Positions 48,621 to 63,800 of a stretch of 64,000 nucleotides of DNA are shown piece after piece. The position numbers were made by a program, and so were the translations under genes. The stretch is from Gigantopelta aegis (Eukaryota > Mollusca > Gastropoda > Neomphalida > Peltospiridae): the NCBI RefSeq assembly GCF_016097555.1, contig NC_054712.1, positions 46,851,571 to 46,915,570 of the forward strand. Reading direction: 5' to 3'. The notes below the pieces were generated by a model. The model saw nothing but the letters and a program-made list of their open reading frames with translations. It searched no databases and was not told where the DNA came from. Numbering within the stretch: position 1 is the first letter of the stretch; each line of letters opens with the position of its first letter.

Positions 48621-51600
48621 GCCTGTATATCAGTCTCTCTGTATGTCTTTTTTGGGCAAGTCGTAGCCCAGTGGTAAAGCGCTCGCTTGATGTGAGTTCG
48701 TTTGGGATCGATCCCCGTCGGTGGGCCCATTGGGCTGTTTCTCGTTCCAGCCAGTGCACCACGACTGGTTTATCAAAGGCTGTGGTATGTACTACCCTGT
48801 CCGTGGGATGGTACATATCAAAGATCCCTTGCTGCGAAAAGAGTAGCCCATAAAGTGACGACAGCGGGTTTCCTCTCTCAATATCTGTTGTCTTTAACCA
48901 TATGTCTGACGCCATATAACCGTTAATAAAATGTGTTGAGTGTTGAGTGCGTCACTAAATAAAACATTTCCTTCCTTCCTTCCTGTCTGTCGGACAGTCC
49001 ATCTGTTTGTATATCAATCTCTCTGTATGTCTTTCTTACATGCCTGATTGTTAGTTTTTTATATGTGTAGCCTTCTGTCTTTCCTTGTATACATTTGTCT
49101 AGTCTGTTTATTATGTTTTACCATCTGTTTAAACATCAATTTGCCTTGCTTCTTTATCTTCACGTTTGTCTGTAGTCGGTCAGTCTGGTTTTTGTATGTC
49201 TATGTTTCCTTCTGTCTGTCTCTCCATACACACATTTGTTTGGTCTATCTGGTTTTTGTATGTGTACCTGTCTGTCTGTCTGTCTGTCTTTCTGTACACA
49301 CATTTGTCTAGTCTGTATGACTTTCCATATGTCTGTCCATCCATCTGTTTATACATCAGTCTGCCTTGTTCCTCCATCTACACATATCTGTCAGTCCATC
49401 CAGCCATCTGTCTGTGTATGCATAATTTAGTCAATGATCAGTTATTCCCAGTACTTGTAACTTTATACATCAGTCTGCCTTGTTCCTCCATCTACACATA
49501 TCTGTCAGTCCATCCAGCCATCTGTCTGTGTATGCATAATTTAGTCAATGATCAGTTATTCCCAGTACTTGTAACTTTATACATCAGTCTGCCTTGTTCC
49601 TCCATCTACACATATCTGTCAGTCCATCCAGCCATCTGTCTGTGTATGCATAATTTAGTCAATGATCAGTTATTCCCAGTACTTGTAACTTTATACATCA
49701 GTCTGCCTTGTTCCTCCATCTACACATATCTGTCAGTCCATCCAGCCATCTGTCTGTGTATGCATAATTTAGTCAATGATCAGTTATTCCCAGTACTTGT
49801 AACTTTATACATCAGTCTGCCTTGTTCCTCCATCTACACATATCTGTCAGTCCATCCAGCCATCTGTCTGTGTATGCATAATTTAGTCAATGATCAGTTA
49901 TTCCCAGTACTTGTAACTTTATACATCAGTCTGCCTTGTTCCTCCATCTACACATATCTGTCAGTCCATCCAGCCATCTGTCTGTGTATGCATAATTTAG
50001 TCAATGATCAGTTATTCCCAGTACTTGTAACTTTATACATCAGTCTGCCTTGTTCCTCCATCTACACATATCTGTCAGTCCATCCAGCCATCTGTCTGTG
50101 TATGCATAATTTAGTCAATGATCAGTTATTCCCAGTACTTGTAACTTTATACATCAGTCTGCCTTGTTCCTCCATCTACACATATCTGTCAGTCCATCCA
50201 GCCATCTGTCTGTGTATGCATAATTTAGTCAATGATCAGTTATTCCCAGTACTTGTAACTTTATACATCAGTCTGCCTTGTTCCTCCATCTACACATATC
50301 TGTCAGTCCATCCAGCCATCTGTCTGTGTATGCATAATTTAGTCAATGATCAGTTATTCCCAGTACTTGTAACTTTATACATCAGTCTGCCTTGTTCCTC
50401 CATCTACACATATCTGTCAGTCCATCCAGCCATCTGTCTGTGTATGCATAATTTAGTCAATGATCAGTTATTCCCAGTACTTGTAACTTTATACATCAGT
50501 CTGCCTTGTTCCTCCATCTACACATATCTGTCAGTCCATCCAGCCATCTGTCTGTGTATGCATAATTTAGTCAATGATCAGTTATTCCCAGTACTTGTAA
50601 CTTTATCTTTGTTTAGGGCATGATGTAGCCCAGTGGTAAAATGCTCGCTTGATGCACGGTCATTCTGGGATCGATCCCTGTTGGTGGGCCTATTGGGCTA
50701 TTTCTCGCTCTAGCCAGTGCACCACAACTGGTATATCAAAGGTTGTAGTATGCACTATCCTGTCTGTGTGATGGTGCTTATAAAAGATCCCTTGCTACTA
50801 ATGGAAAAAATGTAGCGGGTTTCATCTTTATGACTGTCAAATTTTACCATATATCTGACATCCAATAGCCGATGATTAATAACTCAATGTGCTCTAGTGG
50901 TGCCGTTAAACAAAACAAACTTTCTTTATCTTTGTTTTTCAGATTTTGGAATTGCGAACGGCGCTACAGAGGAACATGTTACAGCAGATCGAGACGGTGA
51001 TGAGCCTGGAGCGTCTGATCCACCAGATCAACATCTTCTACTTGAAGAACATGCGCAAGGACCTCCAGCTGCTGGAGCGCATGATGCAGGAGATGCCCAG
51101 ACTCACAGAATCCCTCACACCTGTCGAGTTCAGTGAGGTTGTACAGGTACACGAAACACGGCTTGTGCATTCTCTTTTTACTGCTTAATGCGCGGTCGGT
51201 TTGGGATCGATCCCCGTCGGTGGGCCCATTGGGCTATTTTTCGCTCCAGCCAGTGCACCATGACTGGTATATCAAAGGCTGTGGTATGTGATATCCTGTC
51301 TGTGAGATGGTGCGTAGAAGAGATCCCTTGCTGCTAATCGGAAAGAGTAGCCTGTTGTGTGTCGGCAGCGGGTTTTTTCCCTCAATATCTGTGTGTCTAT
51401 TGGGCTATTTCTCATTCCAGCCAGTGCTAACAATTGGTGTAACAGGCTTTGGTATGTGCTATCCTGTCTATGTGATGATGCATATAAAAGATCGCTTGCT
51501 GCTAATCATAAAGAGTAGCACATGAAGTGGCGACAGCGGGTTTCCTCCCTCAATATCTGTGTGGTCCTTAACCCTTTGTCTGACGCCATATAACTGTAAA

Positions 51601-54600
51601 TAAAATGTGTTGAGTGCGTTGTTAAATAAAACATTTCCTTCCTTCCTTCTTTTTTTATAATTTTTTTTTTATATCCCCAGATCATTGACAATGTCAAGAG
51701 TTGAAGAGCCATGAATCACTGCCATACAATATGCTTTTAATTGCATTCAGTATATATTACTCAAATAGAAGATAATTTTCGTATTGATAAGGGAAGATTT
51801 AGCTTTTTGGAACACACTAGTGTTGGTTGGAACATCATCATCACTTATAAGGAAGGAAATGTTTTATTTAACGATGCACTCAACACATTTTATTTACGGT
51901 TATATAGCGTCAGACATATAGTTAAGGACCACACAGATATTGAGAGAGGAAACCCACTGTCGCCACTTCATAGGCTACTCTTTTTTGATTAGCAGCAAGG
52001 GATCTTTTACATACAACATTCCACAGACAGGATAGTACATACCACAGCCTTTGTTACATCAGTTGTGGAGCACTGGCTGGAATGAGAAATAGCCCAATGG
52101 GCCCACCAAGGGCGATCAATCCAAGACCGACTGTGCATCAAGTGAACTCTTTACCACTGGGCTACGTCCCGCCCCTCCTATGAGGGTCAATCCAAGACCG
52201 ACTGTGCATCAAGTGAACTCTTTACCACTGGGCTACGTCCCGCCCCTCCTATGAGGGTCAATCCAAGACCGACTGTGCATCAAGTGAACTCTTTACCACT
52301 GGGCTACGTCCCGCCCCTCCTATGAGGGTCAACCATGACCGACTGTGCATCAAGTGAACTCTTTACCACTGGGCTACGTCCCGCCCCTCCTATGAGGGTC
52401 AATCCATGACCGACTGTGCATCAAGTGAACGCTTTACCACTGGGCTACGTCCCGCCCCTCCGATGAGGGTCAATCCATGACCGACTGTGCATCAAGTGAA
52501 CGCTTTACCACTGGGCTACGTCCCGCCCCTCCGATGAGGGTCAATCCATGACCGACTGTGCATCAAGTGAATGCTTTACCACTGGGCTACGTCCCGCCCC
52601 TTCGATGAGGGTCAATCCAAGACCGACTGTGCATCAAGTGAACGCTTTACCACTGGGCTACGTCCCGCCCCTCCTATGAGGGTCAATCCATGACCGACTG
52701 TGCATCAAGTGAACGCTTTACCACTGGGCTACGTCCCGCCCCTCCGATGAGGGTCAATCCATGACCGACTGTGCATCAAGTGAACGCTTTACCACTGGGC
52801 TACGTCCCGCCCCTCCGATGAGGGTCAATCCATGACCGACTGTGCATCAAGTGAACGCTTTACCACTGGGCTACGTCCCGCCCCTTCGATGAGGGTCAAT
52901 CCAAGACCGACTGTGCATCAAGTGAACGCTTTACCACTGGGCTACGTCCCGCCCCTTCGATGAGGGTCAATCCATGACCGACTGTGCATCAAGTGAACTC
53001 TTTACCACTGGGCTACGTCCCGCCCCTCCGATGAGGGTCAATCCATGACCGACTGTGCATCAAGTGAACTCTTTACCACTGGGCTACGTCCCGCCCCTCC
53101 TATGAGGGTCAATCCATGACCGACTGTGCATCAAGTGAACTCTTTACCACTGGGCTACGTCCCGCCCCTCCTATGAGGGTCAATCCATGACCGACTGTGC
53201 ATCAAGTGAACTCTTTACCACTGGGCTACGTCCCGCCCCTCCGATGAGGGTCAATCCATGACCGACTGTGCATCAAGTGAACTCTTTACCACTGGGCTAC
53301 GTCCCAAGTGAACTCTTTACCACCCTCCTCCGATGAGGGTCAATCCATGACCGACTGTGCATCAAGTGAACTCTTTACCACTGGGCTACGTCCCGCCCCT
53401 CCGATGAGGGTCAATCCATGACCGACTGTGCATCAAGTGAACTCTTTACCACTGGGCTACGTCCCGCCCCTCCGATGAGGGTCAATCCATGACCGACTGT
53501 GCATCAAGTGAACTCTTTACCACTGGGCTACGTCCCGCCCCTCCGATGAGGGTCAATCCATGACCGACTGTGCATCAAGTGAACTCTTTACCACTGGGCT
53601 ACGTCCCGCCCCTCCGATGAGGGTCAATCCATGACCGACTGTGCATCAAGTGAACTCTTTACCACTGGGCTACGTCCCGCCCCTCCGATGAGGGTCAATC
53701 CATGACCGACTGTGCATCAAGTGAACTCTTTACCACTGGGCTACGTCCCGCCCCTCCGATGAGGGTCAATCCGTGACCGACTGACTGGGCATCAAGTGAA
53801 CTCTTTACCACTGGGCTACGTCCCACCCCTCCTATGAGGGTCAATCCACTCTTTACCAGACCGACTGTGCATCAAGTGAACTCTTTACCACTGGGCTACG
53901 TCCCGCCCCTCCGATGAGGGTCAATCCATGACCGACTGTGCATCAAGTGAACTCTTTACCACTGGGCTACGTCCCGCCCCTCCTGATGAGGGTCAATCCA
54001 TGACCGACTGTGCATCAAGTGAACTCTTTACCACTGGGCTACGTCCCGCCCCTCCTATGAGGGTCAATCCATGACCGACTGTGCATCAAGTGAACTCTTT
54101 ACCACTGGGCTACGTCCCGCCCCTCCGATGAGGGTCAATCCATGACCGACTGTGCATCAAGTGAACTCTTTACCACTGGGCTACGTCCCGCCCCTCCGAT
54201 GAGGGTCAATCCATGACCGACTGTGCATCAAGTGAACTCTTTACCACTGGGCTACGTCCCGCCCCTCCGATGAGGGTCAATCCATGACCGACTGAACTCT
54301 TTACCACTGGGCTACGTCCCGCCCCTCCGATGCATCAAGTGAACTCTTTACCACTGGGCTACGTCCCGCCCCTCCGATGAGGGTCAATCCAAGACCGACT
54401 GTGCATCAAGTGAACTCTTTACCACTGGGCTACGTCCCGCCCCTCCGATGAGGGTCAATCCATGACCGACTGTGCATCAAGTGAACTCTTTACCACTGGG
54501 CTACGTCCCGCCCCTCCTATGAGGGTCAATCCAAGACCGACTGTGCATCAAGTGAACTCTTTACCACTGGGCTACGTCCCACCCCTCCTATGAGGGTCAA

Positions 54601-57600
54601 TCCAAGACCGAATGTGCATCAAGTGAACGCTTTACCACTGGGCTACGTCCCGCCCCTCCGATGAGGGTCAATCCATGACCGACTGTGCATCAAGTGAACG
54701 CTTTACCACTGGGCTACATGAGAATGCTTTGAGTTAATAGAATGATGCACCAGGATCTGCACCTTACAAATGGATCATTTTACCCTTAATAACTATCTAT
54801 TATCTTTATTTCTTTACGTACAGATGAAAACAAACACCGGACCCAACATATTTACACCAATTCCATTATGTAAACTGGATAGACGGCAGTCTTTGCCACG
54901 AGTAAAATCAAGATCAGCTGAAGATCACTCCGGTGAAATGGTGCTAGATGAACAATCACACTAAGTGTTGAAATGATTGTATTTTCAACACTGTAATAGC
55001 TTGTAGCTGTCAGCTAGAAATGTGCTGAAGCGCGTTAAATATTCCTTTCCTTTCCCACCTCCTCTGTTTGATAACAGTGATGTGATTGTTCAGCTTTTTA
55101 TCTGATTTCAGATTGTTTTTGTGTAAAATGAGTTTAACAAAGTACTCTGGATTTGGTTTGAAATGCTAAAAAATTACCTTTATTAGTCCCCTACCGGTCC
55201 AACCACAGGGGACTAGGTTTAATCTCGGTCTGTCTGTCTGTCCATCCATCTGTCTGTCCCACTTATATTTTTTCACAATGATATTGAGCTGAAATTTTGT
55301 GTATAGCTTTATCAAATACTATAACAGATCAAGTTTGACTTTCATGATAATATATCCACTTTTGACAGAGTTATGGCCCTTGAACTTAGAAGTTATGGAA
55401 ATGTGGCTTCTTGTCTTTCAATGGGGTATCCATGGCTAGCTCTGTCATTCGTCAAATTCACCAGTTGCAAATTTTAAAAACAATTGGAGAATTTTATTTT
55501 AATTTGGCAAAATAATTTCATGTAATAATTATAGGATATTAAACAAGCTTTCTTTTCGTATCATGTTTATGTCCCGAGTGAAATAATGTTCAATTGTCAC
55601 GAGCTTTAGCAAGTGACAATGAAAATTATTTCACGAGAGACATAAACATGATACAAAATGGTAGCGAGTTTAATATCCTATTTATTACCCATAATGGATC
55701 TTAATTTATATCACTCATCTCGTTTCACCGACGTTCCTGTAAGGTTGTAATACACCAATCGATGACGTCATCATGTGACGTCAAAAGTGTTATGTCCCAC
55801 TTGGCATTCTTGTGGGACATATCACTTTGATACGTACCAAGATATTTGTAACCGTATTGGTAATAATTTATAGTTTATTACAAAATAACTGGGTTTAACA
55901 GATGATTTGGTGAAATTATCTGCTGACCCAGAGGTAGCCCTGGGTATCACATCGTTATGGTAAAGTCTGGGACATCCCTAATTCTCAAGCAATCAACAAG
56001 AAGACCTTTGGCAGGTGTGGTAATTCATAACATGATGATGCATGACTTGTGGTGTTTCTTTTCAGCTGCTGAACACACTGATCTACCCCGCGCCCCAGGT
56101 TTACGAACATCTCACAGATTACATCATGGACCACAAAGACGATATCAGCTTTCAAGACTTGGCTAACTTCGTCTCCGTGATCTCGCAGGCGCGATACACA
56201 CCGAGCCGAATGGACGAGCTGAGTCAGTGCTGTCACGACAAACTGGTGATGTCATTTGACGACCCCGACAGCAATATCGTGGCTCAGATGCAATACATCT
56301 ACCACCTGTGTTGTCTACAGATCGGCTCCGACAGTCTCCTCACTCACGTCTTTACTGTAGACTACCTTGAGAAGGTTGATAAATTGTTTGAAGGTTTGTC
56401 GAAATTCATTGTGTGGTGTTTCATCCATTTTTATGTGACTCAGGGACTCATGTCAAGTAGTTAAACCCCTCTCCACACTCCTACCATTGTTTGAATATGC
56501 TGCTAGTTCAAATAGTACCAAGCATGGATCTGCGTTTTTTATAATAAAAGTTGGGCATAAATTCTGTCAAATTTGTTATAATATTTAAAACATGAAAAAT
56601 CTTTCATTTTGTCGAAGGCATAACAGCCAAAGTCCCCAAAGGGGTAAGTTCTTGATAGGTTGGGTTTCAAAGTATGTGAAATTGCTCTTGGCATTCTGTG
56701 CACATACTTTAATGCAGATTCCAAATGGGGGATGTATTTTGTGGAAGAAATGGACATTCAGTATCAAACATAATTGTAAAAGAACTCTTTTTTTTAAGTA
56801 AACCTAATAGGATGTCCCATTGGACGTACCTAGGGTATGTCTTTGCACAATTCTGAATAACGAAAAAAAAATGTAATACATTTACCAGGGGTGGGAATTC
56901 TCCTCGGATCAGCGGTTTTCCTCTCATGGAACATTGCGTTTCCTCGCATTTTAATCATCCTTGCCCCCAGACCTCTCTAGATTTCCTCTTTTTTTACAGT
57001 TCACCAATTCCCACCCCTGATTTACGGAGTAACCTAAATACGAAAGTAGAGTGTATTTGAATTTTATTTTCATTATTTTTCGATTATCCTGAACAGGTAA
57101 GTAATTTTAATTGGTCATCCATCCTTTCTCTCCTCATTTCTTCACTCTCTCTTCTCCTCAATGCTATTTTAGATGTTTACATCATTTTTAACTCCTGATA
57201 AACCAGAAGTTCAGATTCTATATTTCTGTCTTCTCCTGCCATTCTCAAAGTTTACTTTTTTAACTCCAGCTAAACCAGAAGTTCGGAGTTATCTCGAAGA
57301 TCTGTTTTTCCGTCTGAACCGCTGTGCTGTTCTCGAGTACCCGCATCTTGACATCCCATGGTTCCACGAGGACTACTGCTCCACGATGAAACCTGAACGT
57401 AAGTTACATCATCGGTAAAATCAGTGAACACCATAGGCTTACATGCTCCCATTTTTATAGGGGGGCAGGCTGGTTTTGGACTGAATTTGAATAACAAAGT
57501 TTATTTATATAAGCATACTCCCAAACAACTATATAGGCTTACCAACAAATCACTACGCATTTTTACATGTATTACAACTAATTTTACAGGTAGAATAATG

Positions 57601-60600
57601 GAAATAAATGGTAAAAAGGTCTCAGGTTAGTACATTTTGCCCGAATTTGAGAATTTGCTCTAGCACTAGGGGGACAGTTGTCCCACCCACCCCTCTTTCC
57701 TACGCTTACGATTATCACTTTTAGACTATAGCATTTCACTTTTGTAAAAACAGTGATCACTTTGAGCTTGTCATGTTTGTAAAATTACTCATGACTTTCA
57801 GGCTATATTAAATTTACATGACTGTTTATTAATGTATTATAATATTTCTATATACGTTTTTCAACAATGTACCAAAGTTCCATCAGCATGCTACACGACT
57901 GTATATTAATGTATTAAATTGTTTTTATTTACTCATTTCAGCGATGTACCGAAGTTCTGTCAAGCTGCTACAGGAGATGGAAGATGCTATAAAGGACGTT
58001 CTGGGCGGATCAGCGTATTTTGAGTCGGCAGTGTACACCCCATATCACCACTTTCTCAGTGAGTTACACCCCATATCACCACTTTCTCAGTGAGTTACAC
58101 CCCGTATAAGCATTTTCTCAGTGAGTTACACCCCATATCACCACTTTCTCAGAGTTACACCCCATATCATGACTTTCTCAGTGAGTTACACCCCATATCA
58201 CCACTTTTCTCAGTGAGTTATACTGAATATCACCACTTTCTCAGTGAGTTACACCCCATATCACAACTTTCTCAGTGAGTTACACCCCATATCACAACTT
58301 TCTCAGTTACACCCCATATCACAACTTTTGCAGTGAATTACACTCTGTATTAACATTTTCTCAGTGAGTTACACCCAGTATCAGCACTTTCTCATTGAGT
58401 TACATCCCATATCACCACTTTTCTCAGTGAGTTATACTGAATATCATCACTTTCTCAGTTAGTTAACCCCATATCACCACTTTCTCAGTGAGTTACACCC
58501 CATATCACCACTTTCTCAGTGAGTTACACCCCATATCACTACTTTCTCAGTGAGTCACACCCCATATCACCACTTTCTCAGTGAGTTACACCCCCATATC
58601 ACCACTTTCTCAGTGAGAGACACCCCATATCACCACTTTCTCAGTGAGTTACACCCCGTATCACCACTTTCTCAGTGAGTTACACCCCGTATCACCACTT
58701 TCTCAATGAGTTACACCCAATATTACTACTTTCTCAATGAGTTACACCCCATTATCACCACTTTCACAGTGAGTTACACCCCATATCACCACTTTCTCAG
58801 TGAGTTACACCCCATATCACCACTTTCTCAGTGAGGTATACCCCATATCACCACTTTCTCAGTGAGGTACACCCCATATCACCACTTTCACAGTGAGTTA
58901 CACCCCATATCACCACTTTCTCAGTGAGGTACACCCCATATCACCACTTTCTCAGTGAGGTATACCCCATATCACCACTTTCTCAGTGAGGTACACCCCA
59001 TATCACCACTTTCTCAGGGAGGTACACCCCATTATCACCACTTTCTCAGTGAGGTACACCCCATTATCACCACTTTCTCAGTGTTACACCCCATATCACC
59101 ACTTTCTCAGTGTTACACCCCATATCACCACTTTCTCGGGGAGGTACACCCCATATCACCACTTTCTCAGGGAGGTACACCCCATATCACCACTTTCTCA
59201 GGGAGGTACACCCCATATCACCACTTTCTCAGTGTTACACCCCATATCACCACTTTTTCAGTGAGATACACCCCATATCACTACTTTCTCAGTGTTACAC
59301 CCCATATCACCACTTTCTCAGGGAGGTACACCCCATATCACCACTTTCTCAGGGAGGTACACCCCATTATCACCACTTTCTCAGTGAGGTACACCCCATA
59401 TCACCACTTTCTCAGTGTTACACCCCATATCACCACTTTCTCAGTGTTACACCCCATATCACCATTTTCTCAGTGACTTACACCCCATATCACCACTTTC
59501 TCAGGGAGGTACACCCCATATCACCACTTTCTCAGTGTTACACCCCATATCACCACTTTTTCAGTGAGATACACCCCATATCACTACTTTCTCAGTGTTA
59601 CACCCCATATCACCACTTTCTCAGGGAGGTACACCCCATATCACCACTTTCTCAGGGAGGTACACCCCATTATCACCACTTTCTCAGTGAGGTACACCCC
59701 ATATCACCACTTTCTCAGTGAGGTACACCCCATATCACCACTTTCTCAGTGTTACACCACATATCACCACTTTATCAGGGAGGTACACCCCATATCACCA
59801 CTTTCTCAGGGGGGTACACCACATATCACCACTTTATCAGGGAGGTACACCCCATATCACCACTTTCTCAGGGAGGTACACCCCATATCACCACTTTCTC
59901 AGGGAGGTACACCCCATATCACCACTTTCTCAGTGTTACACCCCATATCACCACTTTCTCAGGGAGGTACACCCCATATCACCACTTTCTCAGGGAGGTA
60001 CACCCCGTATCACCACTTTCTCAGTGACTTACACCCCGTATCACCATTTTCTCAGGGAGGTACACCCCGTATCACCACTTTTTCAGCGAGTTACACCCCA
60101 TATCACCACTTTCTCGGTGTTACACTGCATATCACCACTTTCTCAGTGTTACACCCCATATCACCACTTTCTCTGTGTTACACCCCGTATCACCACTTTC
60201 TCAGGGAGTACACCCCATATTACCACTTTTTCAGCGAGTTACACCCCGTATCACCACTTTCTCAGTGTTACACCCCATATCACCACTTTCTCAGTGTTAC
60301 ACCCCATATCACCACTTTTCTCAGTGAGTTATGCTGTATAATGCTACTTTCTGAGTGATATACACCCCATATTGTAATTTTCTCAACGAGTTTCATCCTG
60401 TATCACCACTTATTCAGTTAAACCCGGTATCACCAGTTTCTTATACTGGGGTACATTAGATAGCCATTTTTCTTACCTAGTTTTGCATTCCTAGATGGTT
60501 TATTATACAGAGAGGCTCGCCTTCTTAAAAACAGTAGTACATCACCAATTGTTTCAAAACCAAATGTGAAAATCATTGCTGTCGGCGAGTTTTGCCTTGT

Positions 60601-61520
60601 CTTGTTATGGTGAAAATTGTTTTACAGATTTTGAGTGTTTGCTGAACTGTGACGGCTGTCCGATCCCATACCCTCAGACGAGCTCTCTACTCAACTCTGA
60701 AGGTCGTCTGATAACCTTCACCCAGGCCACATCATTGTCAGCCGAGCAGATCCAGCACCAGAGGTATCGCACGTAATGGCTGACTTTATAGTAAAACTGT
60801 TGATTGTGAGCTATGTGGTTTCAAGCTGGTTTACTCTATACTTTGTATTCCCAATAACATACAAAATGTGGTATTCCAACATTTGTACTTTTACTTTCAC
60901 GTAAGTGCTGCAAACCTTTTTATAAAATACCTTCATTAAGTTCAATCAAAAACAAGGATGACATCATTATTTGTACGTTAATTATTAATATTAAAAAGAG
61001 TATTTCATTGGTTAATAATGTTGTATTTTGACATTAAAGGATGAAATTATTAATATTAAAAGTAGTTCATTGGTTAATAATGTTGTATTTTGACATTAAA
61101 GGATGAAATTATTTATATTAAAGAGTATTTCATTGGTTAATAATGTTGTATTTTGACATTAAAGGATGAAATTATTTATATTAAAGAGTATTTCATTGGT
61201 CAGTTAAACCATAAATCTGAACTTTAATCTAAAATATAGAAATTTGACTCGTATTGAATGGATTTTTTTAGTTGCCAGAGCCAAATAAAAAATTTATGTC
61301 ATAAAATTAAAAGGTTCAGAATTATGTTTAAAAGTTGTTTATAACAGGATGATGAAATGTTTTTGCTACAAACTATTTAAACATTTTCTTCTGGGTTTTT
61401 TACAGAGTTGCTATATTGGTTTTATTTGAAAAAGATTTCTGTCTAAATAGTCGACATTTAAAGGGAGATAATTTTCTCAGAAGAAGACACTTGGAAATAA
61501 TGGGATACAAAGTTGTAGAG
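46855..61520 (+). CDS. FAST kinase domain-containing protein, FASTKD1-like (7 exons, 3' end beyond window)
   Basis: FASTK-family proteins are mitochondrial RNA-binding proteins that control mRNA stability and processing. Exons: 46855-48558, 50943-51146, 56066-56393, 57270-57398, 57942-58058, 60628-60763, 61406-61520. All have GT/AG borders and every junction keeps frame (911 codons so far). The first ATG after an acceptor-like TTATTACAG (46845) begins MYVKMKTMICQAHLRYF, a basic, acid-free presequence. The helical repeat region occupies exons 1-3. LLNTLIYPAPQVYEHLTDYI, EDLFFRLNRCAVLE and LGGSAYFESAVYTPYHHFL, then FECLL, fit the FAST domains. RVAILVLFEKDFCLNSRHLK and FLRRRHLEIMGYKVVE are the first part of a RAP domain; its end must lie past 64000. 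Total length is nearer FASTKD1 than shorter paralogues. Family firm, paralogue tentative. Confidence 0.9.
48653..48979 (+). mobile_element. SINE-A in FASTKD intron 1
   Basis: Head AAGTCGTAGCCCAGTGGTAA, body and tail with a duplicated GTGTTGA. On both sides lies TGTCTG-rich sequence with CTCTCTGTATGTCTTT, so the target was a simple-repeat region and the duplication limits are unclear. Confidence 0.85.
49348..50606 (+). repeat. 114-bp tandem array, 11 units, abutting the exon 2 acceptor
   Basis: Eleven units (TTTATACATCAGTCTGCCTT ... CCCAGTACTTGTAAC) look identical apart from the left edge. The unit is a multiple of three without stops, so one frame stays open across the whole array (38 residues per unit). 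That frame is not joined to FASTKD coding sequence and its content (YISLPCSS...) is not protein-like. The array's right end CTTTAT merges into the original pyrimidine tract of exon 2. Confidence 0.95.
50615..50923 (+). mobile_element. SINE-B inserted in the exon 2 pyrimidine tract
   Basis: Complete SINE-B, head (GATGTAGCCCAGTGGTAAAA) to tail (GTGCTCTAGTGGTGCCGTTA). The target CTTTATCTTTGTTT is duplicated exactly (50601-50614 and 50924-50937). The right copy now forms the tract directly before TTCAG and exon 2 (50943). Confidence 0.9.
51188..51650 (+). mobile_element. Tandem (dimeric) SINE-A in FASTKD intron 2
   Basis: A first copy starts inside the head (TGCGCGGTCGGTTTGGGATC) and runs to about 51390. 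Then a second copy resumes from ATTGGGCTATTTCTCATTCC and continues to the TTCC tail. The repeated block (body without head) points to internal duplication or a template jump. Confidence 0.8.
51850..52176 (-). mobile_element. SINE-A, source of the 71-bp array
   Basis: Full copy in reverse orientation. Its tRNA-like head (plus strand GACCGACTGTGCATCAAGTG, TTTACCACTGGGCTACGTCC, CGCCCCTCC) is the first unit of the array that follows. Confidence 0.85.
52110..54716 (-). repeat. 71-bp tandem array of the SINE promoter head, about 36 copies
   Basis: Each unit contains the reverse complement of the SINE head: ACGTAGCCCAGTGGTAAAG with an A-box-like TAGCCCAGTGG, and GGATTGACCCTC where single SINEs have the B-box-like GGATCGATCCC. 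Units differ at a few fixed positions (CTCCTATGAG/CTCCGATGAG, AACTC/AACGC, CCAAG/CCATG). These variants cluster in blocks, indicating spread by block duplication. Some units are rearranged or shortened (about 53306, 53780, 53850, 54295). It lies in FASTKD intron 2. Confidence 0.95.
54824..54964 (+). other. Possible alternative terminal exon in FASTKD intron 2
   Basis: After an acceptor-like TTTCTTTACGTACAG an ATG opens 46 codons (MKTNTGPNIFTPIPLCKLDR, then a RRQSLPRVKSRS basic segment) to a TAA. Exon 2 ends in phase 0, so splicing to this segment would stay in frame and give a protein lacking FAST and RAP domains. Downstream (about 55020-55050) the sequence GAAGCGCGTTAAATATTCC resembles a SINE/LINE tail, so it could be a retroelement 3' end instead. 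No similarity recognised. Confidence 0.3.
55433..55940. mobile_element. CTAGCTCTG-type MITE hosting a second hairpin
   Basis: Left GGCTAGCTCTGTCATTCGTC and right CCCAGAGGTAGCCC are inverted; GGGTATC flanks both sides. Inside, 55559-55652 is a strong palindrome (ATCATGTTTATGTC ... GACATAAACATGAT). Third member of the family at 20827 and 41080. Confidence 0.65.
57184..57217 (+). repeat. Decayed copy of the exon 4 acceptor region
   Basis: TTTTTAACTCCTGATAAACC then AGAAGTTCAGATT matches 57257-57290 (tract, AG and first codons of exon 4) at about 28 of 33 positions. The acceptor AG of this copy is changed (CTCCTG for CTCCAG), so the real site at 57268-57269 is used. Confidence 0.7.
58034..60345 (+). 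repeat. 31-bp minisatellite made of the exon 5 end plus its splice donor, ~75 copies
   Basis: The first unit is the coding end of exon 5 (TACACCCCATATCACCAC, TTTCTCA) with its donor GTGAGT at 58059. The same 31 bases then repeat about 75 times. Main forms: GTGAGTTACACC (donor kept), GTGAGGTACACC, GGGAGGTACACC (creates GAG|GTACAC) and GTGTTACACC (29 bp). Because 31 is not a multiple of three, each unit shifts frame. The long open frames here come from variants that lose the TGA of CAGTGAG. Degenerate units continue to about 60440. Confidence 0.95.
61004..61200. repeat. ~63-bp tandem repeat, 3 copies plus a partial
   Basis: Units share TTCATTGGTTAATAATGTTG and ACATTAAAGGATGAAATTAT. In the intron before exon 7 of the FASTKD gene. 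Confidence 0.85.
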
Positions 61521-62302: not shown

Positions 62303-63800
62303 TACTCTTCAAAAAAAGAAACGCAAAAGGGTACAAATGGGTTATAACTCCGATTTTATGTTTCCTACCGGTTCATGCTTTGTGAATATAAGGTCATTGG
62401 ATGTCCCAAACACATTCCCACGGTTACATTCGATAAAACGCAGCTACTGTACAATAAAGTTCCAAAATGTGAATATTCGCAAAAACGCAGCCATGTGCAA
62501 ACCATGTCACCACTGCACGTGCGTTGTCTGCACGTGCAACATGAACACCGACAGTATAAAAGTGCAGGGTGTTCGCTTGCCTGGCCTCTGTATCTGGCCG
62601 ACAGTTGACAATCCAGGACATGCCACGTCTCGGTGAACCGCAGAGAAACAATGCCATCGGCCGACTAGACGCAGGCGAATCCAGAATGGCCGTTGCCAGG
62701 GCATTCCATGTGTCCCCAAGCACCATCTCCAGACTGTGGGACCGTTACCAGCAACATGGATCAACACGTGACCTCCCTAGATCCGGTCGACCACGGGTCA
62801 CTACCCCCGGGCAGGACCGCTACATCCGGGTACGCCACCTTCGGGAACGATCGACTACTGCCACCTCCACAGCCGCAGCAATACCAGGTTTGCGCAGGAT
62901 ATCCGACCAGACCGTACGGAACCGCCTACGTGAGGTAGGAATTCGTGCCAGACGTCCAGTTCGAGGTGTCATCTTAACACCACAACACCGTCGACTCCGA
63001 CTGCAGTGGTGCCAGATTCATCGACAATGGCCTCAACTGCGATGGAGACAGGTGTGGTTCAGTGACGAGTCCCGATTTCTGCTCCGACGTCATGATGGAA
63101 GATGTCGCGTGTATAGGCGTCGTGGTGAACGTTATTCGGCAAACTGCGTGCAGGAAGTGGACAGATTCGGCGGGGGTAGTGTCATGGTGTGGGCAGCCAT
63201 CTCACACACTGGCAGAACTGACCTGGTCCACGTGCAGGGCAACCTGAATGCACAGGGCTACATTGACCAGATCCTCCGGCCACACATCGTTCCAGTTATG
63301 GCCAATGCCAACGCAGTGTTCCAACATGACAACGCCAGGCCTCACACAGCACGTCTCACAATGGCTTTCCTATAGAACAACAACATTAATGTCCTTCCTT
63401 GGCCATCGATATCACCGGATTTGAACCCAATTGAGCATCTATGGGACGAGTTAGACCGACGCCTCCGACAGCGACAACCACAGCCCCAGACCCTGCCCGA
63501 GCTGGCAGCAGCCTTGCAGGCCGAGTGGGCCACCATCCCCCGGGACGTCATCCATACTCTGGTTGCTTCAATGAGCAGGCGGTGCCAGGCAGTTGTCAAC
63601 ACACGCGGAGGCCACACCCGGTATTGACTCCAGATGACCTTGACCTTGGTGGTGTGTCCTATCACTTACTCACAATGGACTAGAGTGAATTGTGAACAAT
63701 CCTGCAACATTTGGTAATTATCGGACTCACCATTCAATAATTAAATCAATTCTCCAAATGTTACGACAATGTGGTTTTGCGTTTCTTCTTTTGAAGAGTA
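62303..63800 (+). mobile_element. Tc1/mariner transposon in the last FASTKD intron seen
   Basis: Terminal inverted repeats TACTCTTCAAAAAAAGAAAC and, inverted, GTTTCTTCTTTTGAAGAGTA sit in a TATATA target, consistent with TA insertion. The 1.5-kb body encodes one transposase. Confidence 0.9.
62620..63627 (+). pseudogene. Tc1-type transposase (DD34E) with one in-frame TAG
   Basis: Cut-and-paste transposase of 335 codons from MPRLGEPQRNNAIGRL. The N-terminus has a paired-like helix-turn-helix (GRLDAGESRMAVARAFHVSP, about 14-45), a GRPR motif (57-60) and a second HTH near 85-110. Catalytic residues: D149 (FSDESRF), D237 (FQHDNARPHTA) and E272 (PDLNPIEHLWDE), with 34 positions between the last two. 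The reading frame has no shift, but codon 252 (63373-63375) is TAG between D237 and E272, so this copy should make no active enzyme unless read through. Confidence 0.9.

Follow-up and report, generated by a model that had tools for sequence, protein, structure and literature searches.

Exon-boundary minisatellites are known from human CBS and from IFI6 (6-16). Lievers et al. reportedly linked the 31-bp CBS VNTR to reduced activity in 2001, and Turri, Cuin and Porter are said to have described the splice donors of the IFI6 minisatellite in 1995; the IFI6 unit is short (12 bp) and would keep the reading frame. The CBS repeat, c.1444_1467+7(16_21), lies at the boundary of exon 13 and intron 13 (PMC2630376; PMC1395315) and joins 24 coding to 7 intron bases in a 31-bp unit present in 16-21 copies (PMC2630376), and a table entry pairs it with raised homocysteine and lowered activity (PMC1395315). 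In IFI6, two downstream minisatellite units are used as donors, giving rise to three mRNA species (PMC4526556). Further sources describe situations that touch on the same theme: variable internal tandem repeats in human segmental-duplication genes have units of about 30 bp and alter exon/intron structure, some of them at boundaries (PMC2812944); introns can be gained by a tandem duplication across a splice boundary, which copies the splice signals (PMC4974935); and the retained introns of OGT, ARGLU1 and SF3B1 contain decoy exons (PMC12017769).

How does the present locus compare? We analysed a window of 64,000 nucleotides from the gastropod Gigantopelta aegis, located on contig C14 of the 1.15-Gb assembly that was searched. 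The array in intron 5 of its FASTKD-like gene joins the known exon-boundary minisatellites of CBS and IFI6 as a far longer example in an unrelated gene, not as a new kind, a kinship that the original prediction had not mentioned. The likeness to CBS is a 31-bp tandem unit laid across an exon end and the first intron bases, yet CBS has 16-21 copies as compared to about 75 here, and its units are invariably 31 bp whereas those of the array range from 27 to 32. Moreover, length variation and reduced activity are reported for CBS, while the Gigantopelta aegis array is known from one assembly. As in IFI6, a minisatellite supplies several donor sites, but the IFI6 unit would keep frame and all alternative donors here truncate the protein. 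The human internal repeats have about four copies on average, sit in recent paralogs and fall in coding sequence in half of the cases, unlike the array here. Decoy exons share with it the splice-like intronic sites that could engage the spliceosome; however, they do not form an array, and their role is backed by decoy mutation and blocking, whereas such a role is only conceivable for the array. Tandem-duplication intron gain, finally, creates a new intron, and we rejected this origin for intron 5, whose acceptor region (60446-60627) is not repeat-derived. Within the literature collection searched, no paper combining FASTKD with a minisatellite was found, a result that is silent on papers outside this collection.

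Table 1. Features of the FASTKD-like gene and its intron 5 array (positions within the window)
Feature	Coordinates	Strand	Basis
Exon 4, FASTKD-like; FAST_2 match begins here	57270..57398	+	ORF and donor score; boundaries inferred
Exon 4 donor GTAAGT	57399	+	boundary inferred
Tandem duplication, 77 bp x 2.1, over exon 5 acceptor and first exon bases	57815..57972	+	TRF
Exon 5, FASTKD-like, 117 nt	57942..58058	+	FAST_2 across exon 5-6 join, phase, translation
Regular array, 75 units of 31 bp (27-32), each unit exon end plus donor	58034..60329	+	TRF, wraparound alignment
Native 5' splice site TCA/GTGAGT	58059..58064	+	of all GTs to 60445, the only one giving an open frame as far as the end of exon 7
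Proximal block, units 2-25, GTGAGT in 16/24, more diverse	58065..58805	+	alignment, donor tally
TGA at which the exon 5 frame closes in all forms that run beyond donor 2	58091..58093	+	ORFs, frame test
Distal block (units 26-75), little variation in exonic part	58806..60329	+	alignment, donor tally
Four decayed units, 5-12 mismatches each	60330..60445	+	wraparound alignment
Non-repeat remainder of intron 5, acceptor TTTTACAG	60446..60627	+	blastn
Exon 6, FASTKD-like, 136 nt	60628..60763	+	C-terminal part of FAST_2; frame
Exon 7, FASTKD-like	61406..61520	+	first part of RAP domain; open frame

TRF describes the array by a period of 31, 75.1 copies and 89% matches (58034-60331), and wraparound alignment resolves it into 75 regular units. 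Unit 1 consists of the last 25 coding bases of exon 5 (58034-58058) and the adjoining GTGAGT (58059-58064), so that the unit spans an exon end together with the donor that follows, as befits a splice-donor VNTR. Units 2, 16 and 25 are identical to unit 1, and 44 distinct unit types occur among the 75. The unit composition and copy number given in the original prediction (25 coding plus six donor bases, about 75 copies) are thus reproduced, and its extent of 57942..60440 needs trimming: an array is present, but the regular part stops at about 60329, and the remainder to 60445 is decayed. Array and decayed units make up 93% of intron 5, which measures 2569 nt. The stretch that remains (60446-60627) has no other blastn match inside the window, only itself.

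Exon 5 ends in phase 1, and its in-frame junction with 60628 reads ...VYTPYHHFL-N-FECLL... and is open through exon 7. In a profile search of the joined exons, FAST_2 scores 72.6 bits across exons 4 to 6 (cut-off 26.9); the exon 5-6 product alone reaches 41.9 bits over profile positions 43-89, spanning the join. Both the phase match between exon 5 and 60628 and the fit of the exon 5-FECLL join to a FAST domain had been proposed from the bare sequence, and both hold. The RAP domain scores 24.3 and 24.5 bits against a cut-off of 24.2, over profile positions 7-35 of 58 only, and FAST_1 scores 20.2 and 19.9 bits (cut-off 27.4) with a query whose exon join is approximate upstream of exon 5. No relatives of the exon 5-6 product turned up in a PDB sequence search. 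An ORF at 46.8-48.6 kb is probably the first coding exon, and no Pfam family matched it. CAG/GTACAC at 51147 (the slash marking the exon-intron boundary), where the boundary is inferred, is probably the native exon 2 donor and scores 0.7 on a rough human donor matrix, on which the exon 7 donor GAG/GTAAGT scores 7.7. Inspection by eye of the ORFs in the next 10 kb revealed no clear candidate for the last RAP exon; after exon 7, at 62560-63627, lie ORFs that by eye resemble a Tc1-type transposase. Searched exon by exon for FAST_2, the genome gave three weak matches, none above the cut-off. Two of these are exons 4 and 5 of the present gene, and the third, at 21.9 bits, lies on contig C2 (C2:50843291-50843389), perhaps an exon of a FASTKD paralog.

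Which came first, the exon end or the array? The unit-encoded residues YTPYHHFL add about 15 bits to the FAST_2 score, which is 41.9 with the native sequence, 26.4 when they are masked and 23.9-33.7 in 7/7 shuffles. Since these eight residues carry FAST_2 signal, the sequence would have been coding before its repetition. Genome-wide, all 62 matches to the 25-base exonic part (up to three mismatches) lie inside the array, compared with 0 for a reversed control, and this unit search of the assembly revealed no other contig carrying a second allele. Taken together, the protein evidence, on which the order rests, indicates that the exon end came first and that the array is derived from the gene's own exon-intron boundary. 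The original prediction had said as much, with 58059 as the original donor, and unit composition, FAST_2 signal and the single genomic place agree with it. The 13-mer TTTCTCAGTGAGT by itself is uninformative, with 63 places genome-wide versus 60 for its reversed control; three occurrences cluster in a 1-kb stretch of contig C13 (C13:35770421-35771380), which by the 25-mer search is not the array's unit.

Within the array, two blocks can be told apart. Intact GTGAGT is found in 16 of 24 proximal units versus 2 of 50 distal ones, where donors mostly read GTGAGG, GGGAGG or GTGT, and the distal block harbors an exact 242-nt repeat at offset 303. Units 2-25 have diverged to the same degree in their exonic (0.075 edits per base) and donor parts (0.076), which is expected without selection on either. 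In units 26-75, the corresponding values are 0.025 and 0.273. This unevenness is accounted for by a small number of founder changes that recent amplification would have spread. Alternatively, intact decoy donors may have been selected against, which would imply that the decoys matter. Distinct changed states, tallied by hand, amount to 11 of 18 possible in donor columns versus 26 of 75 in exonic ones (Fisher p = 0.06, with units that are not independent of one another). Read in the forward frames, the consensus unit has one stop only, a TGA that lies within the donor; where GGGAGG and GTGT units follow one another, all three frames are therefore open, resulting in long distal ORFs. Such ORFs, of up to 293 aa, are seen at 58928-60358.

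What would happen if a donor other than the first were used? Donor-like sites were scored with a rough matrix and a U1 5' end that both use human values; by this measure, a site of at least -0.5 is present in 47 of the 75 units, unit 1 included. Between 58059 and 60445, 57 GTs including the native one reach this score, whereas 200 dinucleotide shuffles average 11.3 and never exceed 24; 19 GTs reach 1.0 (shuffles: mean 5.2, maximum 13). Densities per kb in the array exceed those in window positions 1-57900 at both thresholds (23.8 vs 8.6 at -0.5; 7.9 vs 4.0 at 1.0). The native donor scores 1.09 on the rough human scale, the same as 16 further exact TCA/GTGAGT copies, and is outscored by two ACA/GTGAGT copies (2.76); GAG/GTACAC sites score -0.3, with a computed U1 pairing energy of -5.7 that equals that of the native site. 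Given 16 identical and two stronger copies of the native donor, its exclusive use is an assumption. The frame, in turn, separates the native site from all others: among the 137 GTs from 58059 to 60445, one (the native) is open through exon 7, two are halted within exon 6, and for the other 134 the frame closes at the 58091 TGA. Frame-keeping alternative donors were thus rejected, with 136/136 non-native GTs truncating the frame, and the alternative array donors are predicted to give no full-length protein. Use of any of the 56 non-native donor-like sites would place the stop no closer than 129 nt upstream of the exon 6-7 junction, and the resulting RNAs would probably be subject to nonsense-mediated decay.

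These results redraw what had been expected of the donors at the outset. That the array is rich in donors stands, but not that every unit offers a 5' splice site, a claim that shrinks to the 47 units above. The expectation that about every third unit keeps frame fails, because forms that extend beyond donor 2 are all cut short by the 58091 TGA, and joining donor 2 to exon 6 brings in a stop within that exon. With it falls the proposal of length-variable isoforms through alternative donors. The other roles proposed at the outset, a splice-site sink or a means to tune splicing, are hypothetical.

We favor a reading, at a probability of roughly 60%, in which the array is a tolerated passenger of the intron with only the first donor productive, possibly at a small cost to splicing; the original prediction had named a neutral array of this sort as its fallback. 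As judged from the DNA, a tandem duplication would have started at the 3' end of exon 5, taking in 25 coding bases and the 6-base donor, and may have grown on the intron side to about 75 units, which would be spliced out with the intron. In productive mRNA, 58059 would be joined to 60628. Array length would change by unequal exchange, the central and distal part having probably been homogenised most recently. Occasional use of a downstream donor would yield truncated RNAs destined for nonsense-mediated decay, so that the cost would be a slight loss of output rather than new proteins. TRF finds long tandem arrays in other introns of the FASTKD-like gene as well, and array growth therefore needs no special cause. 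One of them comprises 11 copies of a 114-bp unit at 100% matches (49348-50606; TRF) and is very recent or actively homogenised. Another intron contains long 71-bp tandem arrays with higher-order periods (52116-54717), and a 63 bp x 3.5 array lies at 60980-61200. Exon 5 itself is duplicated at both ends, the upstream 77-bp copy having no AG (TTTCAAC vs TTTCAGC at the real acceptor).

The array might, however, do more than ride along. The repeat unit also contains CACTTTCTCAG, an acceptor-like feature that the original prediction had passed over; as acceptor-like we counted any YAG preceded by no less than 70% pyrimidines (-20 to -5), strength being judged by pyrimidine content only. By this definition, acceptor-like sites reach 23.9 per kb in the array versus 1.2 in window positions 1-46000, and most of them have about 75% pyrimidines at -20 to -5 as compared to 50% at the real exon 6 acceptor. 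The acceptor-like TTTCTCAG overlaps the donor GTGAGT by one base. In a recursive (ratchet) splice site, a donor GT comes immediately after the acceptor AG; this candidate was rejected, as AG and GT share one G in CTCAGTGAGT and no GT comes after the AG. Array donors and acceptor-like sites could conceivably compete for parts of the spliceosome, such that productive FASTKD mRNA would fall as arrays lengthen, transcripts being either truncated and decayed or left with a retained intron. This splicing rheostat, suggested by sequence features, we regard as possible but rather unlikely. It would fit the excess of donor-like sites over shuffles (57 vs 11.3), the density of acceptor-like sites together with the pyrimidine-poorer real acceptor, the reduced activity reported with the human CBS VNTR and the intron retention that decoy exons mediate in human OGT (PMC12017769). 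Yet intact GTGAGT is rare distally (2/50 units), the site scores are crude and based on human values, and the donor excess is only about threefold relative to the rest of the window (23.8 vs 8.6 per kb).

Could the units instead serve as exons? Because AG and GT share a G, a 31-bp unit running from an acceptor to the donor that follows amounts to a 30-nt exon, and array units used as frame-keeping cassettes of this size would repeat TPYHHFL inside FAST_2. For one-unit candidates, 32/34 are open in frame and 17/34 carry YTPYHHFL exactly, and with one cassette added FAST_2 still scores 66.4 bits (72.6 without). But only 17/34 candidates end in a donor of at least -0.5 (16 of these are open), and the first of these requires an intron of just 32 nt; a matching frame is expected by chance in one case out of three; pyrimidine content is the sole measure of acceptor strength; and the RAP score, 24.5 bits without the cassette, slips to 23.8, which narrowly misses the cut-off. 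When pairs giving exons of 30 to 300 nt are considered, 50/354 keep the frame and are open. We consider such cassette exons highly improbable. A broader version, that of a field of dozens of exon-like units recognised by the spliceosome, of which one might be included as a repeated FAST_2 (TPYHHFL) insertion or which might stall it as decoy exons do, appears improbable too, if slightly less so. The chance that the copy number is in part an assembly artefact, a collapsed or expanded repeat, would be compatible with any other reading and is likewise slim: an array exceeding 2 kb in which a 242-nt segment recurs exactly invites such errors, but 44 distinct unit types among 75 make a gross one unlikely. 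Still more improbable is an origin from a dispersed satellite or a repeat carried in by a transposon, from which the gene would have captured its exon end. Tandem arrays abound in the window, but 0/62 unit matches lie outside this one, on which ground a dispersed satellite was rejected, and the residues encoded by the exon copy contribute to the FAST_2 score.

What, then, does this array have to offer? It constitutes a natural test of how the spliceosome chooses one donor among many near-identical ones. Every alternative donor would cut the protein short, so that its use could be read cleanly as a loss of output. If array length varies between individuals, the locus would provide a simple test of splice-site competition.
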